This document shows, one piece after another, positions 6,148 to 30,310 of a stretch of 34,455 bases of DNA; the stretch's first letter is position 1; each line of letters starts with the position of its first letter. Source of the stretch: Acinetobacter towneri (lineage in GTDB: Bacteria > Pseudomonadota > Gammaproteobacteria > Pseudomonadales > Moraxellaceae); NCBI RefSeq assembly GCF_001758345.1, contig NZ_MKQS01000021.1, forward strand, positions 1 through 34,455, written 5' to 3'. Below the pieces are notes generated by a model that made no database searches, was not told where the DNA came from, and saw only the letters and a list, made by a program, of their open reading frames with translations. Made by a program: the position numbers and the translations under genes.

Positions 6148-7146
6148 ATGACCACAGATGCAGCTTTTCCAACACCAGCAAACTTAGGCATTGCCGTATA
6201 TAGTAATAACGCCGAAGCGATTGGTAACACGCCATTGGTACGCATTAACCGTTTAATTTCTGGCGGTGCAACGGTTTTAGCCAAGGTGGAAAGCCGCAAC
6301 CCTGCATTTTCTGTGAAATGCCGTATTGGAGCAGCTTTAATTGCCGATGCAGAAAAACGTGGCGTGTTAAAAGCGGGCATGCATATTGTCGAACCGACCA
6401 GCGGTAATACAGGAATCGCTTTGGCATTTGTAGCTGCAGCAAAAGGTTATGAAATTACACTAACTATGCCTGCAAGCATGAGTATCGAGCGCCGTAAGGT
6501 TTTGAAAGCTTTGGGTGCAAATTTGGTGTTGACTGAGCCTGCAAAAGGCATGAAAGGCGCGGTGGATGAAGCAGAGCGTTTAGCAACTGAACATCCAGAA
6601 ACTTATTTTTTGCCGCAGCAGTTTAATAACCCTGCCAATCCACAAATTCATGAAGAAACCACAGGTCCCGAAATTTGGGCAGCAACAGGTGGGAAGGTAG
6701 ATATTCTTGTTGCCGGTGTAGGTACAGGCGGTACCATTTCTGGTATTTCACGTTATTTCAAAAAGGTAAAAGGTCAGGCATTGCATAGTGTTGCAGTTGA
6801 GCCTGCAGAATCTCCAATTATTGGTCAAACAAAGCGTGGCGAAGCCCTTACACCTGCACCACATAAAATTCAGGGGATTGGCGCCAACTTTATTCCAAAA
6901 AATCTAGATTTAGATTTGGTGGATGAAGTGATTAGCATTGAAAGTGCTGAAGCAATTGATTGGGCGCGTAGAACAGCAACTCATGAAGGTATTTTAGTCG
7001 GTATTTCTAGTGGTGCAGCAATGGCTGCAGCAGCTAAATTGGCTGCACGTCCTGAAAATGCAGGTAAAAATATTGTGGTGATTTTACCTGATAGTGGTGA
7101 GCGTTATTTATCATCAGTGTTGTTTGAAGATATTAGTGCAGAATAA
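6148..7146 (+). CDS. cysK: Cysteine synthase A (O-acetylserine sulfhydrylase)
   Basis: This 332-residue PLP enzyme makes L-cysteine from O-acetyl-L-serine and sulfide in the cytoplasm. The PLP lysine is Lys57 in [11 protein letters not shown]. The substrate loop PTSGNTG is at 83-89, and the phosphate-binding glycine loop is [10 protein letters not shown] (~191-200). The C-terminal GISSGAA and PDSGERYLS motifs favour CysK over CysM. The start ATG follows TAGGAAATTATC, a reasonable ribosome site. It has its own terminator at 7174-7207. The gene is monocistronic and divergent from plsB. No T-box, S-box or other leader was recognised upstream. Confidence 0.93.
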
Positions 7147-7173
7147 TGTGTCTTCAGATTGACAGAATCCTTT

Positions 7174-7207
7174 AAAAAATCCCAAAGTTATGACTTTGGG
7201 ATTTTTT
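7174..7207 (+). terminator. Rho-independent terminator of cysK
   Basis: A long stem is formed by AAAAATCCCAAAGT and ACTTTGGGATTTTT around a TATG loop, and it runs into a T-tract. It begins about 27 bp after the cysK stop. Confidence 0.92.
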
Positions 7208-7577
7208 TGGAGAATAAATTGATGAGGTGGATAAAGAGACATTCTGCAAATCAACTTTCTTTGTACTGAGACTCTAATCTTTAGTAGGTTCAGCAATGAA
7301 TCAAACTCAAATAATGGAAGATACTTTATCTAGCATCATCAGAGCTACCATTATTATATAACTTGATTAATCGTTCACGTCATCCATGGCTTTTTGAGAA
7401 TTTATGGAGTGGAGTAATAATGAGGCACAATAATTCACTTTGTAAATATAATATAGATAATTACTCATCGACATGGTGCTGTAAATCATGACTACTTTAT
7501 GTATAGGTGGGGTGAAGTAACCGCAATTGCTGTGGAGCGAATTTAAGCCCAGTTTGATTCATTGTTGATTCATCTAT
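7208..7577. other. Intergenic stretch with no recognisable gene
   Basis: About 370 bp lie between two terminators. A 21-codon frame at 7296-7361 starts with ATG but has no good ribosome site. An open stretch in another frame (about 7313-7490) has no start near its beginning. Neither resembles a protein I know. The region may be a decayed gene or plain spacer. Confidence 0.5.
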
Positions 7578-7608
7578 AAAAAAGAGCTCTCGAAAGAGCT
7601 CTTTTTTT
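7578..7608 (-). terminator. Terminator at the end of the cat-ben-cat operon (bidirectional form)
   Basis: A 13-bp stem (AAAAAAGAGCTCT with AGAGCTCTTTTTT) around a CGAA loop is flanked by A-runs on one side and T-runs on the other, so it can act on both strands. It lies about 20 bp past the catD stop and is the first strong terminator seen downstream of catB. Confidence 0.9.
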
Positions 7609-7629
7609 AACTTTTTTAACAATAAAGTT

Positions 7630-8409
7630 TTATGCTTGGATAAATTGCTTCACCGCTTGGTTAAATTCGTTTGACAATTCTACGTTAGAAATGTGCGATG
7701 CATTGATTTCAAACAATTGGCTATTGGCAATACGTTCAACCATAAATTGAGCATCGGCAACAGTTGTTATAGGGTCTTGCTGACCTGCAACTACTAAAAC
7801 AGGCACACTGATGTCTTTAAGTTGTTCACGTACATCCGCTTTAGCCAAAGCTTCGCAACAGCTCGCATAACCTTCGGCGCTGCCAGCTGCCAAGTCGTTT
7901 TGAAGATTGTTGACCACTGTCGCGTTGCTCTGGATAAAGGGTTCAGTAAACCAGCGTGATGCTGCAGTCGAAGCAATCGGCTGTAAACCTTGTTCGCGTA
8001 CCAATGCGGCACGGTCATTCCAAGCCTGTTCTTGACCAATTTTTGCTGCGGTATTACATACCACCACCTGATTAAAACGTTCAGGGCGATGAATCGCTAA
8101 CCATTGACCTGTTAAACCACCCATAGAAATACCACAGAATGCCGCTTTTTCAACATTCAAGTGATCGAGTAGATTTACAAGATCTTGACCCAATTGATCA
8201 ATGCTATATGGGCCTTGCGGAGCTGATGATGCACCGTGACCACGTGTGTCGTAGCAAATGACAAAAAAATCTTGCTGGAAAAAATCAATCTGTGCTTGCC
8301 ACATTTTGAAATTTGTACCAAGCGAGTTTGAAAAAATCAGTGCAGGTTTTGCAGCATCACCAAAAGTTTGGTAATTGATTTGCGCATCATTTGAGGTAAA
8401 AGTTGGCAT
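7630..8409 (-). CDS. catD: 3-oxoadipate enol-lactonase (alpha/beta hydrolase)
   Basis: This 259-residue hydrolase opens 3-oxoadipate enol-lactone (4-oxo-4,5-dihydrofuran-2-acetate) to 3-oxoadipate, the last ring-derived step of the catechol branch. The alpha/beta-hydrolase triad is visible: Ser95 in CGISMGG, Asp212 in AGQQDPIT and His239 in NASHISN. The oxyanion region FSNSLGTNFKMW is near residue 26. It is the last gene of the operon, 68 bp after catF, with a degenerate palindromic repeat in the gap. The name catD rather than pcaD rests on its cat context; the two families are nearly identical. Confidence 0.92.
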   Translation of the reverse strand: MPTFTSNDAQINYQTFGDAAKPALIFSNSLGTNFKMWQAQIDFFQQDFFVICYDTRGHGASSAPQGPYSIDQLGQDLVNLLDHLNVEKAAFCGISMGGLTGQWLAIHRPERFNQVVVCNTAAKIGQEQAWNDRAALVREQGLQPIASTAASRWFTEPFIQSNATVVNNLQNDLAAGSAEGYASCCEALAKADVREQLKDISVPVLVVAGQQDPITTVADAQFMVERIANSQLFEINASHISNVELSNEFNQAVKQFIQA

Positions 8410-8433
8410 TTTTTTAAAATCCTTAATCTTATA

Positions 8434-8465
8434 GATCCACCTAAATCCCTCTTATGAAAGGGGGC
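8434..8465. repeat. Dispersed palindromic repeat copy between catF and catD
   Basis: The plus strand reads ATCCACCTAAATCCCTCTT then ATGAAAGGGGG. It closely matches, in opposite orientation, the element at 9768-9800 on the other side of catF. From memory, such sequences are common in Acinetobacter intergenic DNA; their copy number here was not checked. Confidence 0.6.
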
Positions 8466-8477
8466 TTTTAATGAGGA

Positions 8478-9683
8478 TTAAACACGTTCAATGATCAAAG
8501 CAATACCTTGACCGACACCAATACACATTGAACATAAACCGTATTTTCCGCCAGTTTGTTCAAGTTGGTTCAGTGCTGTAGTGACTAAACGTGCACCAGA
8601 TGCACCAAGTGGGTGACCCAAAGCAATTGCACCACCGTTTGGATTGACTTTCTCTGAACCATCTTCGATGCCTAAGTCGCGAGTACATGCTAACGCTTGA
8701 GCAGCAAAGGCTTCGTTCAGTTCAATCACGTCCATTTGTTCAATGGTTAAACCTGTTTGTGCCAACAATTTTTTGATCGCAGGCGCAGGACCAAAGCCCA
8801 TAATACGTGGTTCAACACCAACAACAGTTGAAGCAATGATTTTGGCACGTGGTTTTAAGCCGTGTTGTGCAACCGCTTCTTCAGAAGCAATCAGTAGGGC
8901 AGCCGCACCATCGTTAATACCTGACGCGTTACCTGCAGTCACAGTACCGTCTGCTTTTACCACTGGCTTTAATTTTGCCAATGCTTCTGCTGTGGTTGAT
9001 GCACGTGGATGTTCGTCTGCAGCAACAACGACAGGCTCGCCTTTACGTTGTGGAATTTCCACTGCAATAATTTCTTTGTCAAAGAAACCGCGTGCTTGTG
9101 CAGCAGCAGTACGTTGTTGGCTGGTTAGAGCAAACAAGTCTTGATCGGCGCGGTTAATATTGAACTGTTCCGCTACATTTTCAGCAGTTTGCGGCATAGT
9201 TTCTACGCCGTACATTTCTTTGAGTTTCGGGTTAATGAAACGCCAGCCCATTGTGGTGTCTTCAATTTTTTGACTACGACCATAAGCAGATTCTGATTTA
9301 CCCATCACAAATGGAGCGCGGCTCATTGATTCAACACCACCTGCAATAATCAGGTTTGCTTCACCTGCTTTAATTGCACGTGCGGCCATTGCAATTGCGT
9401 CTAGCGATGAACCACATAAACGGTTTACAGTGGTTGCTGGCACTTGGTACGGTAAACCTGCTAAAAGTGCAGACATACGACCCACGTTACGGTTGTCTTC
9501 ACCTGCTTGGTTGGCACAGCCGTAAATCACGTCATCAACTTGTTCCCAGTTTACAGATGGATTGCGTTGCATAAGTGCTTTGATCGGTAATGCGCCTAAG
9601 TCATCAGCACGGACTGGAGCTAAACCACCTGCATAACGACCAAATGGGGTACGGATGGCATCGACGATATATGCGTTTTTCAT
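8478..9683 (-). CDS. catF: 3-oxoadipyl-CoA thiolase
   Basis: This 401-residue thiolase splits 3-oxoadipyl-CoA with CoA into succinyl-CoA and acetyl-CoA, feeding the TCA cycle. The three thiolase signatures are present: nucleophile Cys90 in NRLCGSSLDA, His357 in GHPLGASG, and Cys387 in CSMCIGVGQG. The length fits the PcaF/CatF family. It sits between catJ and catD in the order known for the ADP1 catBCIJFD operon. The gaps on both sides (68 and 138 bp) are wider than elsewhere in the block and hold related palindromic repeats. Confidence 0.95.
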   Translation of the reverse strand: MKNAYIVDAIRTPFGRYAGGLAPVRADDLGALPIKALMQRNPSVNWEQVDDVIYGCANQAGEDNRNVGRMSALLAGLPYQVPATTVNRLCGSSLDAIAMAARAIKAGEANLIIAGGVESMSRAPFVMGKSESAYGRSQKIEDTTMGWRFINPKLKEMYGVETMPQTAENVAEQFNINRADQDLFALTSQQRTAAAQARGFFDKEIIAVEIPQRKGEPVVVAADEHPRASTTAEALAKLKPVVKADGTVTAGNASGINDGAAALLIASEEAVAQHGLKPRAKIIASTVVGVEPRIMGFGPAPAIKKLLAQTGLTIEQMDVIELNEAFAAQALACTRDLGIEDGSEKVNPNGGAIALGHPLGASGARLVTTALNQLEQTGGKYGLCSMCIGVGQGIALIIERV

Positions 9684-9710
9684 ATTTTATTTTCCAAATA
9701 TCTTAATCTC

Positions 9711-9801
9711 TCCCAACCTCCCTTTAAAAAAGGGAGGAGATTCCCACCTAAAATTACTTGATGGAAGTCCCCCTTTGAAAAAGGGGGATTTAGGGGGATT
9801 A
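9711..9801. repeat. Two G/C-rich palindromes between catJ and catF
   Basis: The first stem is CCTCCCTTT (9717-9725) with AAAGGGAGG (9729-9737) around AAA. The second is TCCCCCTTT (9768-9776) with AAAGGGGGA (9780-9788) around GAA, followed by TTTAGGGGGATT. The second is the inverted counterpart of the copy at 8434-8465. Neither is followed by a T-tract on the minus strand, so they more likely affect mRNA processing or decay than termination. Confidence 0.75.
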
Positions 9802-9821
9802 AAAATTATATTTAAAGACGA

Positions 9822-10475
9822 TTAAGCCTGAGTCGCATCAATCAGCTTTGCACCAGTCAATGACTGTAATTCTTCAAAGCTCAAGCCTTCAACTTTTTCA
9901 AGAACTTTCATACCTTCAGGAGTGACATCAATCACACACAAGTCTGTGTAAATGCGATCTACACACTTTAAGCCTGTAGCGGGATAAGTCAGTTCAGCTA
10001 CAATTTTAGCTTCGCCTTTTTTGGTGACGTGATCGGTTGTAATAAAGACTTTTTTTGCACCCACGGCCAAGTCCATTGCACCACCAACCGCAGGAATCGC
10101 GTCAGGAGCGCCAGTATGCCAATTTGCCAAGTCACCATTTTCAGCCACTTGGAAAGCACCCAATACTGCGATGTCTAAGTGACCGCCACGCATCATGGCA
10201 AATGAGTCACCATGGTGGAAGAATGAACCGCCTGTAAGCATGGTTACGAACTCTTTACCGGCATTGATTAATTCAGGGTCTTCTTCTCCTGCAGAAGGTG
10301 GTGGGCCAAAAGCCAATAAACCATTTTCAGAATGTAAGAATACGTCTTTTTCTGAAGACAGGTAGTTAGAAATTTTAGTTGGTAAGCCTATGCCAAGGTT
10401 AACATAAGCACCGTCTGGAATGTCTTGTGCCACACGTTCAGCGATTTGATCACGTGTTAATTTGGTATAGCGCAT
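9822..10475 (-). CDS. catJ: 3-oxoadipate CoA-transferase subunit B
   Basis: This 217-residue beta subunit of the succinyl-CoA:3-oxoadipate CoA-transferase works with CatI to activate 3-oxoadipate. The catalytic glutamate is Glu50 in the family motif SENGLLAFGP, and GLPTKISNYL lies before it. I chose the ATG at 10475 because GGAGAAC lies 3 bp before it and the protein then begins MRYTKLTRDQIA, as in the family. The longer frame from 10538 would overlap catI and adds unrelated residues. The gap to catI is 22 bp, so the two subunits are probably co-translated. Confidence 0.93.
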   Translation of the reverse strand: MRYTKLTRDQIAERVAQDIPDGAYVNLGIGLPTKISNYLSSEKDVFLHSENGLLAFGPPPSAGEEDPELINAGKEFVTMLTGGSFFHHGDSFAMMRGGHLDIAVLGAFQVAENGDLANWHTGAPDAIPAVGGAMDLAVGAKKVFITTDHVTKKGEAKIVAELTYPATGLKCVDRIYTDLCVIDVTPEGMKVLEKVEGLSFEELQSLTGAKLIDATQA

Positions 10476-10497
10476 GATGTTCTCCTTCATGTGACAG

Positions 10498-11184
10498 TTA
10501 TGCAGATTGTTCAGGTTGTTTTGCGCCAACGGCAACAACGTGCTGAACGAAAATACCCGGAGTGATGATGTGTTCAGGATCTAACGCGCCTAACTCAACC
10601 ACTTCAGAAACCTGTGCAATCGTCACATCGGCAGCCATCGCCATGATTGGTCCAAAGTTACGTGCAGATTTACGGTACACCAAGTTACCCCAACGATCAC
10701 CTTGCTGTGCTTTAATTAAAGCAAAGTCTGCGCGGATTGGATTTTCAAGTACGTAGTCTTTACCTTCATACTTTAGGGTGGGTTTGCCTTCAGCAAGCAA
10801 AGTACCAAAACCTGTAGGGGTATAGATTGGACCGAGACCCATACCTGCAGCCTGAATACGGCATGCCAAGTTACCTTGTGGCACAAGTTCAAGCTCGATT
10901 TTGCCTGCGCGGTAAAGTTCATCAAATACCCAAGAGTCAGACTGACGTGGGAATGAACAGATGATTTTACGTACTGCGCCAGCTTTTAATAGCTTTGCTA
11001 AACCGTAGTCACCATTACCTGCGTTGTTGTTTACAATAATTAAATCTTTGATGCCAAGTTCAATCAAACCATCAATGAGTTCCGCTGGCTGACCTGCGGT
11101 ACCAAAACCACCAATCATGATGGTTGAACCATCTTTAATTTGCGAAAGGACTTCTGTTAAAGAAGTTTGACTTTTATCAATCAT
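10498..11184 (-). CDS. catI: 3-oxoadipate CoA-transferase subunit A
   Basis: This 228-residue alpha subunit of the 3-oxoadipate CoA-transferase shows the N-terminal glycine loop MIGGFGTAGQP (23-33) and the CoA-transferase core with NNNAGNGDYGLAKLL and PTGFGTLLAEG. Its ATG lies inside the end of benE, giving an 8-bp overlap (11177-11184). Its ribosome site, AGGA, is within benE's coding tail. That layout couples catI translation to benE and ties the second cat block to the ben block. In ADP1, by contrast, catI follows catC. Confidence 0.94.
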   Translation of the reverse strand: MIDKSQTSLTEVLSQIKDGSTIMIGGFGTAGQPAELIDGLIELGIKDLIIVNNNAGNGDYGLAKLLKAGAVRKIICSFPRQSDSWVFDELYRAGKIELELVPQGNLACRIQAAGMGLGPIYTPTGFGTLLAEGKPTLKYEGKDYVLENPIRADFALIKAQQGDRWGNLVYRKSARNFGPIMAMAADVTIAQVSEVVELGALDPEHIITPGIFVQHVVAVGAKQPEQSA

Positions 11185-12433
11185 AATGTGTCCTAGACAA
11201 TTGCCTGTCCATTAACTTTTGGAACTTTGAGTTGAAGGTAGGGGGGGCGGTTGAGCTGTTACGTTTGGTTAATACCCAATGTGCGATCAAACCAATACAG
11301 ATACCCCAAAATACAGAACTTAGCCCTAAAAACTGCATACCAGAGGCGGTTGCTAAAAAGGTGATGAGGGCCGCATCACGCTGTGATTCTTTACTCATTG
11401 CCACTGAAATATTGGTAGCAATTGCACCCAAAAGTGCAAGTCCAGCTAAAGCTGCAATCAGTTCTTTAGGCAATAGGCTAAATAGCATGACAATGCTACC
11501 CGCAAATAACCCACCTAAAATATAGAAAATACCGTTGGCAACACCTGCAATGTATCGCTTTTCTTTCAGTTCGTGCGCATCTTTACCTAAGCACAATGCC
11601 GCGGTAATAGAGGCTAGTACAATGGTAATGCCTCCCACACATGCAACGGCAAGAGAAGCCATACTGGTCGCACTAATAATAGGCTTAGCAGGCATGTCAT
11701 AACCGCTAATTTTAATAATTGCCATACCGGGTAAAAACTGCCCAGACAAGCTGACTAAAATTAAAGGTAATGCCAAGTTTAAGGTTGAACTCCACGTCCA
11801 TTCAGGAGCAATAAACTGTGGAATTGCTAAAGTAAAATTGGTGGTCACTGGGTTAATTTGACCGAGCATTAAGCTCAGTATAATGCCTGCAGCAAGCACC
11901 CAAATCATGGCATAACGTGGACTAAAACGCTTTGCCAATAAAAATACCGCCAGCATCCCAAATACAATGTATGGCAGAGTATTGGTTGCACTAAATAGGC
12001 CTAAACCAAATTGAACCAAGATACCTGCCATCATGCCTGCTGCGACTTCTTGCGGAATCCACGACAGGAGTTTGTCAAAATATCCTGTGATTCCAACCAA
12101 GAAAATCACCACAGCAGAGGTAATGTAGGCTGCAACAGCTTCATTCAGGCTAATATCGGGAAACAGAGTGACCAGCAATGCGGTACCAGGTGCTGACCAA
12201 GCGGTAACCACAGGCACTTTGTATTTAATGGATAAAAAGATACCTGCGACAGCAGCACCAATAGAAATTCCCCAAATCCATGAAATCATCATGTCTGGGG
12301 AAACGTGGGCTTGCTGTGCTGCTTGGAAAAAGATGATCAATGGTCCTGAATAAGAGATCAGCACTGCTAAAAACCCTGCAACAGTGGCTGAAATTGACCA
12401 GTCATTTTTTAAAGTTTGGAACAGGTGACTCAT
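11177..12433 (-). CDS. benE: Benzoate transporter BenE (inner membrane)
   Basis: This 418-residue integral membrane protein of the BenE family has about 12 hydrophobic segments, beginning MSHLFQTLKNDWSISATVAG. It includes the family stretch WSAPGTALLVTLFPDISLNEA and VSLSGQFLPGMAIIK. BenE proteins are proposed benzoate:H+ symporters. I chose the ATG at 12433 because AGGAGG lies 10 bp before it; the upstream TTG at 12457 would place that site inside the gene. It follows benD by 59 bp and overlaps catI by 8 bp. It gives the operon a second uptake route besides BenK. Confidence 0.93.
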   Translation of the reverse strand: MSHLFQTLKNDWSISATVAGFLAVLISYSGPLIIFFQAAQQAHVSPDMMISWIWGISIGAAVAGIFLSIKYKVPVVTAWSAPGTALLVTLFPDISLNEAVAAYITSAVVIFLVGITGYFDKLLSWIPQEVAAGMMAGILVQFGLGLFSATNTLPYIVFGMLAVFLLAKRFSPRYAMIWVLAAGIILSLMLGQINPVTTNFTLAIPQFIAPEWTWSSTLNLALPLILVSLSGQFLPGMAIIKISGYDMPAKPIISATSMASLAVACVGGITIVLASITAALCLGKDAHELKEKRYIAGVANGIFYILGGLFAGSIVMLFSLLPKELIAALAGLALLGAIATNISVAMSKESQRDAALITFLATASGMQFLGLSSVFWGICIGLIAHWVLTKRNSSTAPPTFNSKFQKLMDRQLSRTHYD

Positions 12434-12492
12434 TGACGATTTGCCTCCTTGCGTCAAGCAATGATCCTGTAGAAGTTGGTCATGATCTTGGC

Positions 12493-13278
12493 TTAACCCT
12501 GATCACCACCACCTACAGGTACAACAGTGCCTGTGATGTACGATGATTCATCAGAAGCAAGGAATAGAATCGCATTCACTTGTTCCTGAATGGTGCCGTA
12601 GCGACCCATGAATGTACGATCAATTGTTTGATCGACCACTTGCTGCATCCACGCTTTTTCATTTTCAGACAATGGATTGGCATTGCGAGGCACTTTACGT
12701 GGTGGTGCTTCTGTACCACCAGTTGCAATGGCATTGACACGAATACCATCTTTGGCATGTTCAAAGGCGAGGGAAGCAGTTAAAGCGTTCACACCACCTT
12801 TAGACGCTGAATATGGCACGCGGTGAATACCACGAGTTGCAATAGAAGATACGTTTACGATTGTACCTTTTTGATTTTTAATCATTTCTGGAAGTACTGC
12901 ACGGCAGCACCACATCGTCGGAAATAATGAGCGGTTCACTTCCTTAATGATTTCTTCTTCAGAAAATTCTTCAAAAGGTTTCATCCAAATTGCACCGCCT
13001 ACGTTGTTAATCAGCACATCAACACGACCGTAGATTTCAAGTGCTTTAGCAACCACAGATTCTGCATCTGCAAAAGTTTCAAGGTTGGCTTTTACGGTTA
13101 CTGCATCGCCACCATGTTCTTCAATTTCAGCCAACACTTCTTCTACATAGGGAGAAAGGTCAGCCATAACGACTTGGGCACCTTCACTCGCCACTTGTAA
13201 AGCCACACCGCGACCAATGCCTTGAGCGGCACCAGTCACGATTACAACTTTCTTTTCAAATCTTTTTGCACGGTTCAT
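12493..13278 (-). CDS. benD: 1,6-dihydroxycyclohexa-2,4-diene-1-carboxylate dehydrogenase
   Basis: This 261-residue short-chain dehydrogenase oxidises and decarboxylates the cis-diol made by BenABC to catechol, with NAD+. The cofactor loop TGAAQGIG is at 15-22 and NNVGG at 91-95. The catalytic Ser is in NVSSIATRG (~144-145), with Tyr156 and Lys160 in the YSASK motif. AGGAGCATCAA before the ATG gives a strong ribosome site. It lies 24 bp after benC and 59 bp before benE, in the usual ben order. Confidence 0.94.
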   Translation of the reverse strand: MNRAKRFEKKVVIVTGAAQGIGRGVALQVASEGAQVVMADLSPYVEEVLAEIEEHGGDAVTVKANLETFADAESVVAKALEIYGRVDVLINNVGGAIWMKPFEEFSEEEIIKEVNRSLFPTMWCCRAVLPEMIKNQKGTIVNVSSIATRGIHRVPYSASKGGVNALTASLAFEHAKDGIRVNAIATGGTEAPPRKVPRNANPLSENEKAWMQQVVDQTIDRTFMGRYGTIQEQVNAILFLASDESSYITGTVVPVGGGDQG

Positions 13279-13302
13279 TTGATGCTCCTACAGCGGGTCA
13301 AC

Positions 13303-14358
<1,056 letters not shown>

Positions 14359-14381
14359 TCAGCCAAATTCCATCTGGCTGA
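14359..14381 (-). other. Intercistronic hairpin between benB and benC
   Basis: TCAGCCA and TGGCTGA form a 7-bp stem around a 9-base loop. The transcript continues into purine-rich sequence, not a U-tract, so a terminator is unlikely. It may mark an RNase processing or mRNA-stability site that adjusts oxygenase to reductase levels. Confidence 0.5.
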
Positions 14382-14413
14382 AAGGTTTTACCTAGCTGTA
14401 AATCTATACAGTC

Positions 14414-14905
14414 TTAGAGGTGATAAATATCGATTACTTGGTTGATATAATCGTTTTTCAGCACCACGTACTTGCTTAAAATTTGTGGTTTGTCGCCAGA
14501 AAAATCGATTTCATAGCGTGACATCCCAAAATAGCTGTAGTTAGTTTTGTAACGGAAACTTAAAGTGTTCCAGTTAAAACGTACAGTGACTTTATCGCCT
14601 TCACGTTCCACAATTTCAATATTGCTAATGTTGTGGCTGGTACGTGTATCAGGCATGGTCGCAGATGAGCGTTCAGTCTTGATACGGAATACACGGTCTT
14701 CTAAACCTTGACGGTCTGGATAGTAAATCAAGGAAATTTCGGACTGTGGATCTTCAGTTAAAGTGTCATTGTCATCCCATGCAGGCATCCAGAAAGATGC
14801 ATTAGGGGCATAGCACTGTAGCCAGTCATCCCATTGCTCATCATCTAAAAAGCGGGCTTCCTGATACAGGAACTGTGCAATGTTTTCTAAAGTGATGTCG
14901 CTCAT
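14414..14905 (-). CDS. benB: Benzoate 1,2-dioxygenase small (beta) subunit
   Basis: This 163-residue structural beta subunit belongs to the ring-hydroxylating dioxygenase family (NTF2-like fold), with the typical N-terminus [16 protein letters not shown] and W(D)DWLQCYA. The beta subunit supports the alpha3beta3 oxygenase and carries no metal site. Its ATG overlaps the benA stop in an ATGA arrangement (14902-14905), with GGAGAAACC just upstream inside benA. That is the sign of translational coupling for a 1:1 complex. Confidence 0.94.
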
Positions 14906-16290
14906 GCGGTTTCTCCTTCAGTGTTTGCAGCAATTTCTTTTTCAGTCGCAATACCTTTTTTGATTAGATCTAACCAATGTTGGTGCTGTGAAAGATATAA
15001 ACCTTCGTCTTCAGTTTTAATACCTGAAAGTTTTGGTTTTAAACCGATTTCGTTTGCAGCATCGTCTGGACCTTGGATCCAATGCTTAGAACCACGGCAC
15101 ATATCGTTCCACTCAAGTGCGATACCTGCGTAGCCAACTTGACATGCACGGAATTCTTCAAGATCGTCTGGTGTAGCCATACCTGATGCGTTAAAGAAGT
15201 CTTCGTACTGACGAATACGGCGTGCGCGTGCTTCTGGCTCTTCACCGACTGGACCGATACAGTAAATCGTCACTTCAGTCTTATCGACAGAAAGAGGACG
15301 TAACACACGAATTTGTGAACCGAACTGATCCATGAAGTACACGTTTGGATAGATACACAAGTTACGTGAACGCTCGATCATCCATTTCGCCATTGCTTCA
15401 CCGAATTGCTCGGTGTATTCGTTTTTCTTGGCAAAGTTAGGACGGTCTTCTGGGTTAGCCCATTGCGTCCAAAGGAGCATGTGACCATTTTCAAAGCCGT
15501 AAGAACCACCGCCTTGTTTGCCCCATGAACCTGCGCTCATAGCACGAATATTGTCGCCAGCTTCTTTTTCTTTACGTTGCTGAGTCGTTGCAGCGTAGTT
15601 CCAGTGTACTGCAGACACGTGGTAACCATCGGCACCGTTTTCAGCAGTTAACTTCCAGTTACCTTCATAAGTGTAAGTAGAAGAACCACGTAAAACTTCA
15701 AGACCTTGTTGTGATTGCCCCACAATCATGTCAATGATTTTAGTTGCTTCACCTAAGTATTCTTCTAAAGAAGGAACATCTGGGTTCAAGCTACCAAACA
15801 AGAAACCTTTATAGCTTTCAAAACGGGCAACTTTTTTCAAGTCGTGTGAACCGTCTTTGTTGAAGCAATCTGAATAACCTGCATCTGCTGGGTCTTTCAC
15901 TTTTAACAACTTACCAGAGTTGTTAAAAGTCCAACCGTGGAATGGGCAAGTATAAGTTGCTTTGTTACCACGCTTGTAACGACATAACTGTGCACCACGG
16001 TGTGAACACGCATTGATCATGGCATTCAATTCTCCATTGCGGTTACGCGCAATGATGATTGGCTGACGACCAATATAAGTGGTGTAGTAGTCATTGTTGT
16101 TTGGAATTTGGCTTTCGTGTGCCAAATAAACCCAGTTGCCTTCAAAAATGTATTTCATTTCTAGGTCAAACAAGGCTTGGTCTGTGAATACTGAGCGGTG
16201 TAGTTTAAATTCACCAGATTCAAAATCATCAACCAATAGCTCATCAATGCGGTCTAAGTGGCTGGTGTTAATTACAGGAATACGAGGCAT
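14902..16290 (-). CDS. benA: Benzoate 1,2-dioxygenase large (alpha) subunit
   Basis: This 462-residue catalytic alpha subunit of the Rieske dioxygenase turns benzoate into the cis-1,2-dihydrodiol carboxylate. The Rieske 2Fe-2S ligands are Cys95 and His97 (ACSHRGA) and Cys115 and His118 (CPFHGW). The mononuclear iron site lies in [12 protein letters not shown]: His224 and His229, with Asp221 as the bridging aspartate. I chose the ATG at 16290 ([16 protein letters not shown]) because GGAGAAAGGAC precedes it and the N-terminus matches BenA of ADP1 as I remember it. A longer frame to 16311 has no such site. It follows catA by 88 bp with no promoter or BenM box seen. Confidence 0.96.
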
Positions 16291-16378
16291 GTCCTTTCTC
16301 CGGCTGTCCAATGAGGGGCAGTCAATCGGGAAGTGCCTGATTTATATTCAAGACACGTCCCGCTTTCCTTTTTGGGAA

Positions 16379-17299
16379 TTAAGCGCTTGCGCGACGACGG
16401 TCGACTTCAGTGCTAGGCGCGTTTTCTTTTTCTTTCACAAGTTCAATATTGAACTGGATGTGTTTGAAAGGACCCTTTAGGCCACGGCGTGCAATTTCAG
16501 CTTCATCAGTTACATCAACAGCGGTTGCAACAAGGCCTTCTCGTGTAGCGAATGCAAAGTCATCCCACAGGTATTTATCACCCTCAATGTTGAATTGAGT
16601 AGTCAGTTTGCGGTAACCCGGTGCAGATACGAAATAGTGCACATGAGATGGGCGGTTACCATGACGGCCTAATTTGTCCAATACGAACTGAGTAGTACCT
16701 TCTGGTGGGCATCCATAACCAACTGGCATTGTAGTCAGTGCAACATATTTACCATCTTGGTCAGTGAAAATAGAGCGACGCAGATTGAAGTCAGACTGTG
16801 ACTTATCAAAGAATGAGTAGTTACCCAAGCTGTTGGCGTGCCAAACTTCAACTTTAGCGCCTTCAATAATATTGCCTTCGGTATCAGTTACAGTACCTTC
16901 GATGATTAGAGTCGGGATTTTACCTTCTTCAGAACCATCATCCATACGTGCAAAGCCAACTGATTCAGGTGCGCCTGCTACATAAAGTGGACCTTCAATA
17001 GTCCGTGGTGTGCCACCGGTGATACCTGCTTTAGCATCAGCTTCATCTGCACGCAAGTCCAAGTAGTGCTCTAGCCCTAAGCCTGCAGCTAATAGACCTA
17101 ACTCATTTGCTTGGCCCGCATCCGTAAAGTATTCCAAACCTTTCCAAAGCTCAGTTTGAGAAATATCAAGATCTTCAATCGCCTGGAACAGGTCACCTAA
17201 CAAGCGCACAACAATCTGTTGTACTCGCTCATCTACAGGACCAGTCGCAGTATCGACGTTAATTTTCTTAACTAATACATCAATTTCTTGGCGGTTCAT
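16379..17299 (-). CDS. catA: Catechol 1,2-dioxygenase (intradiol)
   Basis: This 306-residue Fe(III) enzyme cleaves catechol between its hydroxyls to cis,cis-muconate, the co-inducer of the pathway. The four iron ligands are visible: Tyr161 in GNYSFFD, Tyr195 in VGYGCP, and His219 and His221 in RPSHVHYF. An N-terminal helical dimerisation domain (~1-100) precedes TIEGPLYVAGAP. AGGAGCAATAGT gives the ribosome site. It sits between catC and benA, 152 bp after catC. In ADP1 catA is apart from catBCIJFD and from ben, so its place here is unusual. Confidence 0.96.
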   Translation of the reverse strand: MNRQEIDVLVKKINVDTATGPVDERVQQIVVRLLGDLFQAIEDLDISQTELWKGLEYFTDAGQANELGLLAAGLGLEHYLDLRADEADAKAGITGGTPRTIEGPLYVAGAPESVGFARMDDGSEEGKIPTLIIEGTVTDTEGNIIEGAKVEVWHANSLGNYSFFDKSQSDFNLRRSIFTDQDGKYVALTTMPVGYGCPPEGTTQFVLDKLGRHGNRPSHVHYFVSAPGYRKLTTQFNIEGDKYLWDDFAFATREGLVATAVDVTDEAEIARRGLKGPFKHIQFNIELVKEKENAPSTEVDRRRASA

Positions 17300-17414
17300 A
17301 CTATTGCTCCTAAAACTATGTTTTTCATATTTTAGTGGCGCATCTTTAGCTTTATTAGCTGGCTAAATTTGGCTGGCCACAATCCCTTGTTGCAGTACTT
17401 TCTGTTTGGCTTTT

Positions 17415-17442
17415 GGATGAGAAATCTTGCGATTCCTCATCC
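17415..17442 (-). other. 12-bp hairpin with GCAA tetraloop between catC and catA
   Basis: On the minus-strand RNA, GGAUGAGGAAUC pairs with GAUUUCUCAUCC (one G-U pair) around the stable GNRA loop GCAA. It lies 10-37 bp past the catC stop. What follows in the transcript is AAAAGCCAAACAG, not a U-run, so it is more likely a processing or stability element than a terminator. Confidence 0.65.
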
Positions 17443-17451
17443 GGTAATCAA

Positions 17452-17742
17452 TTAACTGTCATCCTCTCGAACTGAAGATGGATGACGGTTTAATGGCATC
17501 ACTTCAATATTCATGTATGGGTAGAGCGGTAGACCTTGTAAAATGTTGTGAAGTTCTTCGTTGCTCTCAACATCAAAAATACTGATGTTTGAATACTGGC
17601 CAGTAATACGCCAAATATGACGCCATTTACCTTGACGCTGTAATTCCTGTGAATATGCTTTTTCAACGACTTTAATTTCGTTTGCAGTTTCTGCTGGCAT
17701 ATCCAATGGAATGTTTACATCCATACGTACATGGAAAAGCAT
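17452..17742 (-). CDS. catC: Muconolactone delta-isomerase
   Basis: This 96-residue cytoplasmic enzyme shifts the double bond of muconolactone to give 3-oxoadipate enol-lactone. Length and sequence (MLFHVRMDVNIPLDMP at the start, RQGKWRHIWRITGQYSN in the middle, LPLYPYMNIEVMPLNRHPSS near the end) are typical of the family, which forms a ferredoxin-like decamer. AGGAGAAACTT before the ATG gives a strong ribosome site. It is 13 bp after catB, so they are co-transcribed. Confidence 0.95.
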   Translation of the reverse strand: MLFHVRMDVNIPLDMPAETANEIKVVEKAYSQELQRQGKWRHIWRITGQYSNISIFDVESNEELHNILQGLPLYPYMNIEVMPLNRHPSSVREDDS

Positions 17743-17755
17743 AAGTTTCTCCTAA

Positions 17756-18865
17756 TTACTGACGACGCAAGTTGTCAATTTTGTCTTCATCCAACTCAAC
17801 GCCTAAACCCGCACCTGATGGAAGGTGTAACTCAAAGTCTTGGTATTGAAGTGGGGTTTTTAAAATTTCTTCGGTCAGTAGTAATGGACCAAATAATTCT
17901 GTGCCATAAGTTAAATTCTGGAAGGTCGAGAACACATGCGCAGATGCAATCGTGCCTACAGGACCCTCAAGCATGGTGCCGCCATAAAGGTCAATACCTG
18001 CCAATTGTGCAACTGTGGCTACTTCACAGCCTTCAAGCAGACCAGCAGATTGGGCAACTTTGACTGCAAATACAGATGCAGCATGACGTTTTGCCAACTG
18101 ATAAGCACTTTGTGGGCCTGTTAACGATTCATCTGCCATGATGGCAATATCAAATTTGCGCGTTAGACGCTCCATGGCATCAATGTTGTCAATTGCGCAT
18201 GGTTGTTCAATTAAGTCGACACCGCCATCTTGTAAAAGCTGGATGCCTTTAATTGCGTCAAGCTCTGACCAAGCACGGTTTACGTCTACACGAATAGAAA
18301 CGTCTTTACCTAAAGCTTGTTTAATAGCTAATACGTGTTCTACATCTTGCTCTACTGGGCGTGAACCGATTTTGAGCTTGAAGGTGTGGTGACGTTTTGC
18401 TGTAATCATTTTTTGTGCTTCAGCAATGTCTTTTTCTGTATCGCCAGATGCAAGTACCCATAAAACAGGAACCGAGTTGCGTAAGCGACCACCTAAAATT
18501 TCGCTTAAAGGTTGGTTTAAGCGCTGTGCTTGAATATCTAATAAAGCAGTTTGAATGGCACACTTCGCGAAACGGTTACCATTAATATTCTTTTTAATGA
18601 CCTGTAAAGTTTGCGCAACATTTAAGCCAGCTAAAGTTTTTAGCAATGGTGCGAAATATGTTTCAATATTGGTTTTCACACTTTCTGGGCTTTCTTCACC
18701 ATAGCCCAAGCCACCAATCGTGGTTGCTTCGCCCCAGCCAACAAAACCATCTTCAGTGGTGATTTTGACTAATACCAGAGTTTGGGTTTGCATGGTTGCA
18801 ACAGCCATCTTGTGTGGACGGATGGTTGGTATTTCCAGCAGCAAAGTTTCTACTGACTTATACAT
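17756..18865 (-). CDS. catB: Muconate cycloisomerase I
   Basis: This 369-residue enolase-superfamily enzyme cyclises cis,cis-muconate to muconolactone using Mn2+ or Mg2+. The active-site lysines are Lys163 and Lys165 in TFKLKIG and Lys269 in FAVKVAQ. The metal ligands are Asp194 (RVDVNRAW), Glu220 (LIEQP) and Asp245 (MADES). The lid loop GGLGYGEES is at 51-59. It is the first gene of the twelve-gene operon, and its promoter region is shared with the divergent regulator. AAGGGC precedes the ATG. Confidence 0.96.
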   Translation of the reverse strand: MYKSVETLLLEIPTIRPHKMAVATMQTQTLVLVKITTEDGFVGWGEATTIGGLGYGEESPESVKTNIETYFAPLLKTLAGLNVAQTLQVIKKNINGNRFAKCAIQTALLDIQAQRLNQPLSEILGGRLRNSVPVLWVLASGDTEKDIAEAQKMITAKRHHTFKLKIGSRPVEQDVEHVLAIKQALGKDVSIRVDVNRAWSELDAIKGIQLLQDGGVDLIEQPCAIDNIDAMERLTRKFDIAIMADESLTGPQSAYQLAKRHAASVFAVKVAQSAGLLEGCEVATVAQLAGIDLYGGTMLEGPVGTIASAHVFSTFQNLTYGTELFGPLLLTEEILKTPLQYQDFELHLPSGAGLGVELDEDKIDNLRRQ

Positions 18866-18905
18866 GGTTTGCCCTTCATGTCATTGCTTTATTACATCTT
18901 GTGAT

Positions 18906-18920
18906 ATACCTTAAAAGAAT
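18906..18920 (-). promoter_or_regulatory. Secondary BenM/CatM box (ATTC-N7-GTAT) at the catB promoter
   Basis: In the catB direction the site reads ATTC-TTTTAAG-GTAT, the degenerate form I recall for the promoter-proximal site of ADP1 ben/cat promoters. Its centre is 52 bp, about five helical turns, from the perfect box. A possible catB -10 (TATTCT, 16 bp after TTGATC) overlaps it, which fits repression without inducer. Confidence 0.7.
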
Positions 18921-18957
18921 AAATTGAATTGGTCTAAGATCAAATTTGCATTTTTTT

Positions 18958-18972
18958 ATACTTTAAAGGTAT
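18958..18972. promoter_or_regulatory. Primary BenM/CatM box (ATAC-N7-GTAT)
   Basis: ATAC-TTTAAAG-GTAT is an exact match to the LysR-type recognition site of BenM and CatM. It ends 8 bp before the regulator's ATG and covers the AAAGG that serves as its ribosome site. Binding here would therefore both anchor activation of catB and limit the regulator's own expression. Confidence 0.85.
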
Positions 18973-18980
18973 TCTTAGCC

Positions 18981-19895
18981 ATGGAACTCAGACATTTACG
19001 TTATTTTGTTGCTGTTGTAGAAGAGCAAAGTTTCACCAAGGCAGCAGAAAAACTCTTTATTGCTCAACCACCTTTGAGCAGACAGATTCAAAATTTAGAA
19101 CAAGAGCTTGGAATTCAACTATTCGAGCGTGGAAGCAGGCCGCTTAAGACCACTGAGGCAGGGCAATTCTTTTATCAACATGCCGTTAAACTTTTGTCTA
19201 ATGCGGAAGAAATTAAGTCGATGACAAAACGAGTCGGTATGACCGATCGTACCGTGACTATTGGCTTTGTTGGTTCTTTATTGTTCGGATTATTATCAAG
19301 AATTGTGTATTTGTTTAAGCAGCAGCACCCGCATTTAAAAATAGAAATGGTGGAAATGAGCACCAATGACCAAATTCAAGCACTTAAAGAAGGGCGTATA
19401 GATGTTGGTTTTGGACGTTTAAGAATTTCTGATCCTGCAATTAAACGTATTTTATTACGTGAGGAACGCTTGATGGTTGCAGTCCATTCTAGCCACCCGT
19501 TCGCGACACAAAAAGAAGGTGTATATTTAGCAGATGTTGTTGATCAACATCTATTTTTATATCCAAACCACACTAAGCCAAATTTTTCTACTCAAATTCG
19601 TGGCGTGTTTTCTGAGCATGGTTTAGAACCTCGAAAAATTCGTGAAGTACGTGAATTACAATTGGCATTGGGTTTTGTTGCTGCAGGAGAGGGTGTGTGT
19701 ATCGTGCCAGAAAGCGCTCAAAACATTCATTTGGCGCATTTGCATTTTATACCTTTATTAGATAACACGGCTGTAAGTCCTATATTTATGGCAATCCGTA
19801 ATATGGATGAAAGTGAAGATATTCGATCTTTGTTTGACTGTATTTATCAAGTCTATGATTTGGAAGCTGTCACTTATGACCGCAATGTATTCTAG
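18981..19895 (+). CDS. benM: BenM-like LysR-type regulator of benzoate/catechol degradation
   Basis: This 304-residue LysR protein has an N-terminal winged HTH (residues 1-60, SFTKAAEKLFIAQPPLSRQI) and a periplasmic-binding-type effector domain. I chose the ATG at 18981, where MELRHLRYFVAVVEEQS matches BenM/CatM. The frame from 18924 would run through the operator. Muconate-site residues Ser99 and Thr128 are kept. The secondary benzoate site, Arg160 and Tyr292 (Tyr293 in ADP1 BenM), is also kept, whereas CatM has His160 and Phe293. So it should respond to both muconate and benzoate. It sits divergently from catB, the position of catM in ADP1, but its sequence is BenM type. Residue comparisons are from memory of the ADP1 proteins. 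Confidence 0.92.
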   Translation: MELRHLRYFVAVVEEQSFTKAAEKLFIAQPPLSRQIQNLEQELGIQLFERGSRPLKTTEAGQFFYQHAVKLLSNAEEIKSMTKRVGMTDRTVTIGFVGSLLFGLLSRIVYLFKQQHPHLKIEMVEMSTNDQIQALKEGRIDVGFGRLRISDPAIKRILLREERLMVAVHSSHPFATQKEGVYLADVVDQHLFLYPNHTKPNFSTQIRGVFSEHGLEPRKIREVRELQLALGFVAAGEGVCIVPESAQNIHLAHLHFIPLLDNTAVSPIFMAIRNMDESEDIRSLFDCIYQVYDLEAVTYDRNVF

Positions 19896-19954
19896 TAAAA
19901 CTATATAAAACAAACATTTATAAATATTTTTCTTGAGAAGAGCACAGATATTTT

Positions 19955-20020
19955 AAAAAAATACTGTTGTGTGAATTGCCCTGAAAAACTTGTTTAAGCA
20001 TCACATCGCAGTATTTTTTT
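19955..20020 (+). terminator. Long stem-loop, probable terminator of benM
   Basis: AAAAAAATACTG (19955-19966) and CAGTATTTTTTT (20009-20020) form a perfect 12-bp stem. The second arm ends in a T-tract. Inside the 42-base loop, GTGTGA can pair with TCACAT. The long loop is unusual for a terminator, but the A-run/T-run form is convincing. Confidence 0.6.
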
Positions 20021-20069
20021 TCGCCTTATTATTTTTATTCAATTAAAAATCAATATATTACAATGTTGT

Positions 20070-20084
20070 AGACTTTTTAGGTAT
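20070..20084 (+). promoter_or_regulatory. Candidate BenM box upstream of benK
   Basis: AGAC-TTTTTAG-GTAT differs from the ATAC-N7-GTAT consensus at one position and shares a T-rich spacer with the perfect site upstream of catB. It lies 100 bp before the benK ATG. One mismatch in AT-rich DNA could be chance. Confidence 0.4.
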
Positions 20085-20183
20085 GTATTCATGCCTATTC
20101 AGTTTTGGACAAATTTTAACTTTTTATCCATTGTGTGCATCTGAGTTGGAGTAACGGACTTCACAATTAGGAGGTGGAGCAAG

Positions 20184-21557
20184 ATGCAAAGCAATAAAAT
20201 TAATATTAATACCTTGATTGACGAGGCCAAGTTCACGCCATTTCATTGGGGTGTATTGTTTTGGTGTCTGATGATCATTATTTTTGACGGTTATGATTTG
20301 GTCATTTATGGGGTTGCATTGCCGCTGCTCATGCAAGAGTGGGGTTTAAGTGCAGTTCAAGCTGGCTTACTGGCCAGTACCGCATTATTTGGAATGATGT
20401 TTGGTGCCATGACCTTTGGTACGTTATCGGACAAGTTAGGCCGAAAAAAAACCATTATGATTTGTGTGGCTATTTTCAGTGGCTTTACATTCTTAGGTGC
20501 ATTTGCAAGCAATCCAGTGGAATTTGGTATTTTACGTTTCCTTGCAGGGCTTGGTATTGGTGGTGTCATGCCAAACGTTGTGGCATTAATGACTGAATAT
20601 GCACCAAAACGTATTCGTAGTACTTTGGTTGCGCTCATGTTTAGTGGTTATGCAATTGGCGGTATGACATCAGCATTATTGGGAGCATGGTTAGTGCCAC
20701 AATTTGGGTGGAAAATCATGTTCTACATCGCGATTATTCCTTTAGTCGCTTTACCGCTCATTTGGAAATTCTTGCCTGAGTCACTCATGTATTTGACCAA
20801 CAAGAAAGAAATTGAGCAAACCCGTACAATCGTGCAAAAAATTTCACCAAGCCATCAATTAAATGGTGACACTGAGTTTGTACTAAATGAGGTGACTAAA
20901 GGCGATGAAGCACCTGTAAAAGCATTGTTCCAACAAGGTCGTATGTTCAGTACTTTCATGTTCTGGATCGCATTTTTCATGTGCTTGTTGATGGTGTATG
21001 CATTGGGCAGTTGGTTACCAAAATTAATGATCCAAGCGGGTTACTCACTTGGTGCAAGTATGATCTTCTTATTTGCCTTGAACATTGGCGGCATGATTGG
21101 CGCAATTGGAGGGGGTGCATTGGCTGACCGCTTCCATATCAAAAAAGTAGTGACCATTATGTTTATCTGTGGTGCAGCAGCATTAATTTTGCTTGGCTTT
21201 AACAGTCCACAAATTGTGTTGTATACCTTAATTGCAGTTGCAGGTGCAGCAACCATTGGTTCACAAATCCTGCTTTATACTTTTGTCGCACAATATTACC
21301 CATCTACTGTACGTTCTACAGGTATGGGCTGGGCGTCAGGTATTGGTCGCATCGGTGCAATCGTTGGGCCAGTACTCACAGGTGCACTATTAACCATGAA
21401 TTTACCGCACCAAATGAACTTCTTTGCTATTGCGATTCCAGGTGTAATTGCTGCCTTAGCAATCTTCATGGTGAATTTAAAAACATCTGTAGAAGCTAAA
21501 GCCGCTGTGGAACCTGTTTTAAACAGCAATCCAGTCACACAAAAAGCAACCCAATAA
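20184..21557 (+). CDS. benK: Benzoate:H+ symporter of the major facilitator superfamily
   Basis: This 457-residue protein of the aromatic acid:H+ symporter family has 12 predicted membrane segments. The first segment carries the family DGxD motif (FDGYD, Asp35 and Asp38). The loop between helices 2 and 3 has GTLSDKLGRKK (79-89), and the later repeat has GGALADRFHIKK. BenK imports benzoate with a proton. AGGAGG lies 9-14 bp before the ATG. It sits between the regulator and a porin gene, all on the same strand, and so shares the benzoate theme. PcaK- or MucK-like substrates cannot be excluded by sequence alone. Confidence 0.88.
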   Translation: MQSNKININTLIDEAKFTPFHWGVLFWCLMIIIFDGYDLVIYGVALPLLMQEWGLSAVQAGLLASTALFGMMFGAMTFGTLSDKLGRKKTIMICVAIFSGFTFLGAFASNPVEFGILRFLAGLGIGGVMPNVVALMTEYAPKRIRSTLVALMFSGYAIGGMTSALLGAWLVPQFGWKIMFYIAIIPLVALPLIWKFLPESLMYLTNKKEIEQTRTIVQKISPSHQLNGDTEFVLNEVTKGDEAPVKALFQQGRMFSTFMFWIAFFMCLLMVYALGSWLPKLMIQAGYSLGASMIFLFALNIGGMIGAIGGGALADRFHIKKVVTIMFICGAAALILLGFNSPQIVLYTLIAVAGAATIGSQILLYTFVAQYYPSTVRSTGMGWASGIGRIGAIVGPVLTGALLTMNLPHQMNFFAIAIPGVIAALAIFMVNLKTSVEAKAAVEPVLNSNPVTQKATQ

Positions 21558-21624: not shown

Positions 21625-21664
21625 GTTGCTAGATTTTGATGGCACAATAATAAGTGAGTTTAGG

Positions 21665-30228: not shown

Positions 30229-30310
30229 TTTACTTGACCAGCTGGTTTTTATAAGATCAATATATGAATACTTGACATCATAATCTATTCACGAAGGAAT
30301 GAGGCTGAAC

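Follow-up and report, generated by a model that had tools for sequence, protein, structure and literature searches.

Acinetobacter baylyi ADP1 is the reference for the control of benzoate degradation, and there, according to the accessible parts of the papers cited here, catA and catBCIJFD are separate units and benABCDE forms an operon with its own promoter (PMC9997567). Other arrangements have been described: Ralstonia pickettii 12J carries a single CatM/BenM with a divergent catBCA-benABCDKE operon (PMC6449761), Acinetobacter radioresistens DD78 has consecutive locus tags for catBCA and benABCDE (PMC6696643), and in Halomonas organivorans and the relatives listed with it catRBCA adjoins benAB (PMC3112211). 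Here we analyse a 34,455-nt stretch of Acinetobacter towneri (contig NZ_MKQS01000021.1, hereafter the window), in which twelve genes, catB-catC-catA-benA-benB-benC-benD-benE-catI-catJ-catF-catD, form one block on the minus strand (18865–7630). As in R. pickettii 12J, a LysR regulator of the CatM/BenM type diverges from catB and the ben genes directly follow catBCA (PMC6449761); unlike that locus, the block continues after benE with catIJFD, so that the lower pathway is included, and the bacterial class differs. A. radioresistens DD78, of the same genus, shares the consecutive catB-catC-catA-benA–E tags, the accessible text being a gene list that is silent on order, catIJFD, regulator and origin (PMC6696643). 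H. organivorans shares the contiguity of cat and ben genes and a LysR regulator divergent from catB, while in the accessible text only benA and benB are reported, the regulator is named catR, and no catIJFD appears (PMC3112211). A. baylyi ADP1, represented in our survey by loci L134 and L135, has the same genes, a BenM-type regulator, a LysR-type site and a similar benA leader; it differs from the window in having separate units and two regulators (PMC9997567, PMC6628147), in the absence of cat genes from the benM-benA interval, and in that benE is not directly followed by catIJFD. Thus catBCA-ben genes under one CatM/BenM (R. pickettii) and catBCA-benABCDE tags (A. radioresistens) were already on record. 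Our search of open-licence literature, as far as its texts were accessible, found no description of the twelve-gene order, of its decay or scars, or of its hairpins, and the accessible parts of PMC5505149, PMC5501837 and PMC7326120 do not discuss this gene order.

We consider it probable that the block is an intact, old single-locus benzoate operon, namely a BenM-driven unit of about 11 kb, segmented by hairpins, whose layout is ancestral and from which split layouts arose by deletion. In this model, one BenM-type LysR activator would respond at the catB promoter to benzoate and muconate, turning on a single unit of about 11 kb, which would cover uptake, the conversion of benzoate to catechol and muconate, and the remaining steps that yield acetyl-CoA and succinyl-CoA. 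The conserved hairpins that follow catA and benB would be probable points of transcript processing or stabilisation, letting the amounts of the segments differ. Repeated deletion of cat genes from the block would have produced the split layouts, among them that of A. baylyi ADP1, in genomes that also carried a second, CatM-type cat locus.

The block starts with catB (muconate cycloisomerase, 17756–18865, TIGR02534), catC (muconolactone isomerase, 17452–17742, TIGR03221) and catA (catechol 1,2-dioxygenase, 16379–17299, TIGR02439). It continues with the large and small subunits of benzoate 1,2-dioxygenase, benA (14902–16290, TIGR03229) and benB (14414–14905, TIGR03232), the reductase benC (13303–14319, NF040810), the diol dehydrogenase benD (12493–13278, NF040811) and the benzoate transporter benE (11177–12433, TIGR00843). 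The lower pathway is encoded by catI and catJ (3-oxoadipate CoA-transferase subunits A and B, 10498–11184, TIGR02429, and 9822–10475, TIGR02428), catF (3-oxoadipyl-CoA thiolase, 8478–9683, TIGR02430) and catD (3-oxoadipate enol-lactonase, 7630–8409, TIGR02427). All twelve products exceed the curated NCBIfam cut-offs and none of the genes contains an internal stop. The largest intergenic gap is 152 bp, between catC and catA, and the benA/benB and benE/catI junctions overlap. A minus-strand scan listed no terminator-like site in the gaps of the block; it gave five such sites, all intragenic, with 5–8 pairs and three G-C pairs each. A palindrome of 13 pairs with a T run on the minus strand (7578–7607), recognised by reading the sequence, is the likely end of the block and is listed by the terminator scan for the plus strand only. 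Sigma-70-like promoter matches are not in excess, with 14 in 7000–20300 against 27.8 in shuffles. A single strand, small gaps and the absence of terminators from these gaps are compatible with one transcript over all twelve genes. The first-pass annotation had described twelve benzoate/catechol genes on one strand with small gaps, no terminator before 7608, and a contrast with the separate catA, catBCIJFD and benABCDE units of ADP1; all this holds, the last point in agreement with the accessible part of PMC9997567, and the single transcript that it proposed gains plausibility from the same sequence features.

To place the block within the genus, 175 Acinetobacter genomes were surveyed, of which 130 carry benA by the TIGR03229 cut-off. 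The stretches around benA from the 129 other genomes make up 130 loci, since G031 carries two, and their layouts were read by tblastn with the window's own proteins. The full twelve-gene order is found in 59 of these 129 genomes (60 of 130 with the window counted), a recurrence that argues against chance; it occurs in A. schindleri, A. lwoffii, A. variabilis, A. towneri, A. bouvetii, A. gandensis, A. terrestris, A. tandoii, A. venetianus, A. modestus and A. gerneri. A further 15 genomes are classed as fused, 14 stopping at a contig end and one (G046) lacking catF in place. Of these, eleven are interrupted inside catIJFD, ten at a contig end and G046 with catI, catJ and catD; the other four show the fused layout on their left side and are cut off on their right. 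In the split class, comprising 40 of the 130 loci, benM adjoins benA, and benE is followed by an MFS gene (28 loci), no known neighbour (7), a cut (3) or catA about 0.7 kb on (2). Eight loci have benM-catA-ben without catI directly after benE, including one that is cut. Five catA-bearing loci are cut on the left (G098, G001, G113, G158) or decaying (G138), and three layouts are unusual, namely those of G081, of G112 and of the second locus of G031. The twelve-gene order is therefore the commonest benA arrangement in the genus and is ordinary there. The first-pass annotation had allowed that this might already be the described standard order: commonest it is in our synteny survey, whereas the accessible literature describes it only in part (PMC6696643, PMC6449761). 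An MFS transporter, an outer-membrane protein and a PdxR-type regulator flank many of the fused loci.

Some details of individual loci were also noted. In L075 (A. piscicola) and L208 (G064, one of the eight benM-catA-ben loci), a complete CatM-type cat locus comes after benM-catA-benABCDE in the same orientation. The benA of L041 is matched in two pieces. L234, L119, L142 and L236 meet contig ends, and several assemblies end just past benE or within catI, as would be expected if those genomes held a near-identical catI/pcaI copy elsewhere, which is possible.

The direction of change is decided not by parsimony counts but by gene linkage in other genera and by deletion scars. In two other genera of the family, eight of nine benA-bearing genomes have a catI-family gene collinear with and downstream of benA, 3.9–8.0 kb away by coordinates (3.8 kb in the window), and in all three genomes with a listed place for catC this gene precedes benA on the same strand, at 1.2 kb twice and 2.3 kb once. 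In the search for scars, loci outside the fused class were compared, between benM and benA and beyond benE, with the cat genes of fused loci; the control, made of reversed sequences, gave no hits at E 1e-3. Specifically, the benM-benA stretch holds catB nt 1–87 and catA nt 775–921 in G030, and catB nt 1–86 and catA nt 768–921 in G135 (E 1e-8 and 1e-14 for catA, 1e-4 for catB). In both genomes the catB stub starts 104 nt past the end of the regulator match, the distance in fused loci being 107–131 nt, and the stub of the catA end leads into the hairpin and the benA leader that are usual at this place. BenM of both genomes shares 87% identity with that of ADP1, and the two group with the ADP1-like loci with support 1.0; BenM and CatM of G007 and G090, and of the split loci L134 and L135, are 99–100% identical to ADP1's. 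In G138, catB nt 1–59 (98% identity) abuts catC nt 221–291, catA is intact, and pieces of catI, catF and catD lie downstream of benE; Acinetobacter sp. A7.4 has by tblastn a G138-like layout (L057) plus a second cat locus (L111). G150 retains catB nt 1–46 and catC nt 240–291 followed by intact catA, and G112 preserves an entire catC in its benM-benA stretch, where neither catB nor catA was found. A first local-alignment test of 40 loci against dinucleotide shuffles gave scores of 45 for L136 and 36 for L140, with 0 of 60 shuffles as high; the same held for L187 at a low score of 21, where the later scar comparison did not confirm a remnant, and for the remaining 37 loci at least two of 60 shuffles scored as high. 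By these remnants, the non-fused loci of the scarred lineages are deletion derivatives of the fused block, and the scar-free split loci would have arisen likewise.

The regulator divergent from catB (18981–19895, plus strand) scores 481 bits with the NCBIfam BenM model and 425 with the CatM model, below both exception cut-offs; because the BenM cut-off is 600 bits (NF040709), it is labelled BenM-type and not BenM by the curated rule. It is the sole close BenM/CatM relative found in its genome, the next-best LysR protein being 28% identical. By alignment it carries F18, N38, R146, R160 and E162, with Y292 aligned to Y293 of BenM, so that all four BenM residues tested (R160, Y293, F18 and N38) are present; the ADP1 CatM residues I18, K38, H160 and F293 are not those of this protein. 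According to the accessible part of PMC6628147, BenM depends critically on R160 and Y293 for its response to benzoate, and CatM altered at positions 18, 38, 160 and 293 gained such a response. Among the 74 fused loci the regulators of 55 were readable; F18, R160 and Y293 are present in all 55, and N38, hence all four residues, in 53. The 14 regulators beside cat-only or separate cat loci, two of which (L075 and L208) probably come from one locus, have K38 in 14, I18 in 11, F293 in 10 and R160 in 11 cases.

A motif scan located a perfect ATAC-N7-GTAT LysR-type site before catB (18958–18972, minus strand) and a second, imperfect site, ATTC-N7-GTAT, with one mismatch (18906–18920, minus strand). 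Among fused loci, 72 of 72 carry such a site, mismatched at one position or none, between regulator and catB (perfect in 31), and all 40 split loci have one between benM and benA. Over the whole window the motif at one mismatch is not in excess (11 found, 12.4 expected), so its weight lies solely in its conserved place before catB. Counted at E 1e-85, exactly one BenM/CatM-type regulator occurs in 48 of 75 fused genomes, more in 26 and none in one (G040), while 0 of 40 genomes with the split benM-benA layout have fewer than two. A single BenM-type protein would thus control the block. In G040 (L152), the fused block is complete and its divergent regulator matches as two partial pieces.

Putative RNA hairpins lie in several gaps of the block, all on the minus strand. 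The one between catA and benA (16327–16362), which precedes the conserved benA leader, and the one between benB and benC (14355–14385) covary across loci; that in the catC-catA gap (17415–17442, 12 pairs) is less regular, and the catJ-catF gap (9684–9821) also contains strong hairpins. Counting the window, stems of at least 8 pairs occur in 70 of 75 catA-benA gaps and 74 of 75 benB-benC gaps, compared with 24 and 26 when each set was shuffled once; in the contrasting benD-benE gap they occur in 8 of 72 loci against 19 in a shuffle. For covariation, 40 of 74 catA-benA and 31 of 74 benB-benC gaps were aligned, all from other genomes, with near-identical sequences dropped and the window's own gaps left out. 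RNAalifold gave 8 pairs for catA-benA and 10 for benB-benC, every pair with some change on both sides; paired cells amount to 94.7% and 91.9%, and covariation of 0.700 and 0.576 was reached by 0 of 500 shuffles. Slid versions of the structures gave at most 0.23, a comparison biased towards the structures, since these were derived from the same alignments. The benB-benC hairpin is also present in 52 of the 55 loci not classed as fused (a count without shuffle control), and the benA leader is highly conserved and common to fused and split loci. The stems may protect or separate transcript segments, for example yielding more oxygenase (BenAB) than reductase (BenC).

As side observations, the best hairpin in 32 catA-catI gaps comprises 9 or more pairs, likewise an uncontrolled count, and inverted repeats of the CCCCCTTT...AAAGGGGG type lie in the catJ-catF (9684–9821) and catF-catD (8410–8477) gaps. 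Allowing at most 3 mismatches, there are 5 overlapping matches at 3 places in the window against 0.02 expected; the repeat is perhaps a dispersed one, yet exact matches occur in only 3 of 303 loci.

Several observations weigh against the reading of the block as an ancestral, BenM-driven operon. The linkage in the other genera was taken from coordinates alone, the benA-catI distance there is 1.3–4.2 kb longer than the window's in six of the eight genomes, and the catI match of G214 is interrupted by a stop. Significant scars are present in just two of the 40 split benM-benA loci; in the 28 loci of the largest split class, the benM-benA stretch shows no significant scar and no catI or catD remnant above the reversed control lies between benE and the MFS gene, so that for this class, scar-free on both sides, deletion is a presumed origin. 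Equal-cost parsimony on the ben tree needs 8 changes for either root state (10 losses if only losses are allowed), and a partial rpoB tree gives 5 against 5; neither settles the root state. The rpoB tree contains neither the largest split class nor G030 or G135, and its outgroup rows are not monophyletic as rooted. R160 is not specific to BenM, since 11 of the 14 regulators beside cat-only loci have it. In ADP1, BenM at PcatB gives high expression that benzoate does not enhance, according to the accessible part of PMC6628147, so benzoate sensing at the catB promoter is not assured. Finally, at least as many pairs with two-sided change arose in 63 of 500 shuffles of catA-benA and in 1 of 500 of benB-benC, so that this bare number tells less than the covariation score.

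Other histories of the gene order must be weighed against descent with deletion. The first-pass annotation had pictured a ben operon embedded in an ADP1-like cat operon, that is, a derived fusion in which benABCDE and catA were inserted into catBCIJFD in this lineage. ADP1, the described reference, does have separate units (PMC9997567, as far as accessible), and equal-cost parsimony by itself leaves the root open; against this stand the catB, catC and catA stubs between benM and benA or before catA in G030, G135, G138 and G150, the linkage of ben to catI in two other genera, and the survey in which this order is the commonest. The stubs lead us to reject the insertion for the scarred lineages, and overall we regard it as very improbable. 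It is also unlikely, if less so, that the wide distribution reflects horizontal spread of a ready-made block. Cat-only copies do occur on Acinetobacter plasmids and CatA types are mixed within fused blocks; yet the annotated plasmids L003 and L004, among the 3 opened of 78 records matching a catBCA plasmid search, have no ben genes beside cat, many fused loci have flanking genes in common, and the fused loci spread over the BenABCD tree.

Transcription of the conserved order could likewise be read differently. Several transcription units, with internal promoters at catC-catA, before benA or at catJ-catF, would fit gaps long enough for promoters (110–202 bp for catC-catA across loci), the highly conserved benA leader, and the LysR-type site with at most one mismatch in 11 of 74 catC-catA gaps. 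Such sites are nevertheless rare in internal gaps relative to the catB promoter, with 3 of 74 in catA-benA (two perfect), 7 of 74 in benB-benC, 2 of 72 in benC-benD, 0 of 72 in benD-benE, 0 of 64 in benE-catI, 3 of 60 in catJ-catF and 4 of 59 in catF-catD. Sigma-70-like sites are not in excess, and the conserved leader bases, which contain GGAG and are no more than 21 nt from the benA start, need not be a promoter. We judge this arrangement rather unlikely, and give about the same low credence to the idea that the hairpins are partial terminators or attenuators instead of processing or stabilising elements. Strong stems do exceed shuffles in five gaps across the fused loci; however, neither the window sequence nor the alignments show a U run after the catA-benA or benB-benC stems, as an intrinsic terminator would have, and Rfam gave no match at the hairpins up to E 1 in 7000–19500, its two matches in that range both falling at 7570–7667, far below gathering scores.

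Returning to the single ancestral block, a further proposal, on which we are evenly divided, is that benM-benABCDE of ADP1, the model for LysR synergy, is a relic. BenM would first have been the sole switch of a twelve-gene operon; a CatM-type cat locus would then have been gained, followed by repeated independent deletions of cat genes, so that PbenA would be the former PcatB, with the ratio-setting RNA elements persisting in split loci. It is easy to take the two-regulator, separate-unit design of ADP1 for the original state. If the ancestral form is the single block, that design is instead a deletion product, and BenM's two-effector logic can be understood as control of the whole pathway. 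Part of the interest lies in this reversal of an ADP1-centred view, the gene order itself being ordinary for the genus. The loci also offer a natural experiment on operon break-up with surviving intermediates (catA only, catC only, stubs) and a putative RNA element that would adjust enzyme ratios within long catabolic transcripts, and they caution against transferring the ADP1 gene order to other Acinetobacter.

Plasmids may be a source of second cat loci, as suggested by L003 and L004, plasmids of Acinetobacter sp. NCu2D-2 and YH12138, which carry catBCA and catIJ beside other aromatic ring-hydroxylating genes; L003 also has pcaF and pcaD, and an IacB protein is annotated. The third opened record (A. 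baumannii, 3.97 Mb) is almost unannotated. Within the blocks, CatA is less than 80% identical to the window's while BenA is at least 88% identical in 13 of 74 fused loci (L183, L190, L199, L154, L216, L130, L131, L132, L184, L170, L242, L239 and L240), 12 of them in one clade (support 1.0). This pattern suggests replacement of catA within the block, and it extends to L184, where the remaining pathway genes are 94–100% like the window's.

The window belongs to an Acinetobacter genome of 2.95 Mb, and its closest named loci are those of the metagenome-assembled genome UBA801 and A. towneri DSM 14962. One copy each of catB, benA, catC and catI/pcaI was found in this genome, the catI of the block being the sole one; further catA copies were not searched for. 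By NCBIfam, the catechol branch of the beta-ketoadipate pathway is complete, with every enzyme from benzoate to the 3-oxoadipyl-CoA thiolase step. Across the whole genome, the protocatechuate 3,4-dioxygenase model (TIGR02422) had nothing above its cut-off, its sole match being a sub-cut-off one in the catA region, and no separate pcaI was found, so the protocatechuate branch is not supported. Given the single-copy gene counts and the lack of that dioxygenase above cut-off, this locus is the sole complete beta-ketoadipate route found in the genome. Downstream of the regulator lies a gene for an aromatic acid/H+ symport MFS transporter (20184–21557, plus strand, TIGR00895), which adjoins one for a DcaP-family outer-membrane protein (21626–22993, plus strand, PF19577). 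Further neighbours in the window are ordinary, namely genes for glycerol-3-phosphate acyltransferase (3402–5906), sulfate permease (1014–2786) and a member of the fumarase/lyase family (30299–31705).

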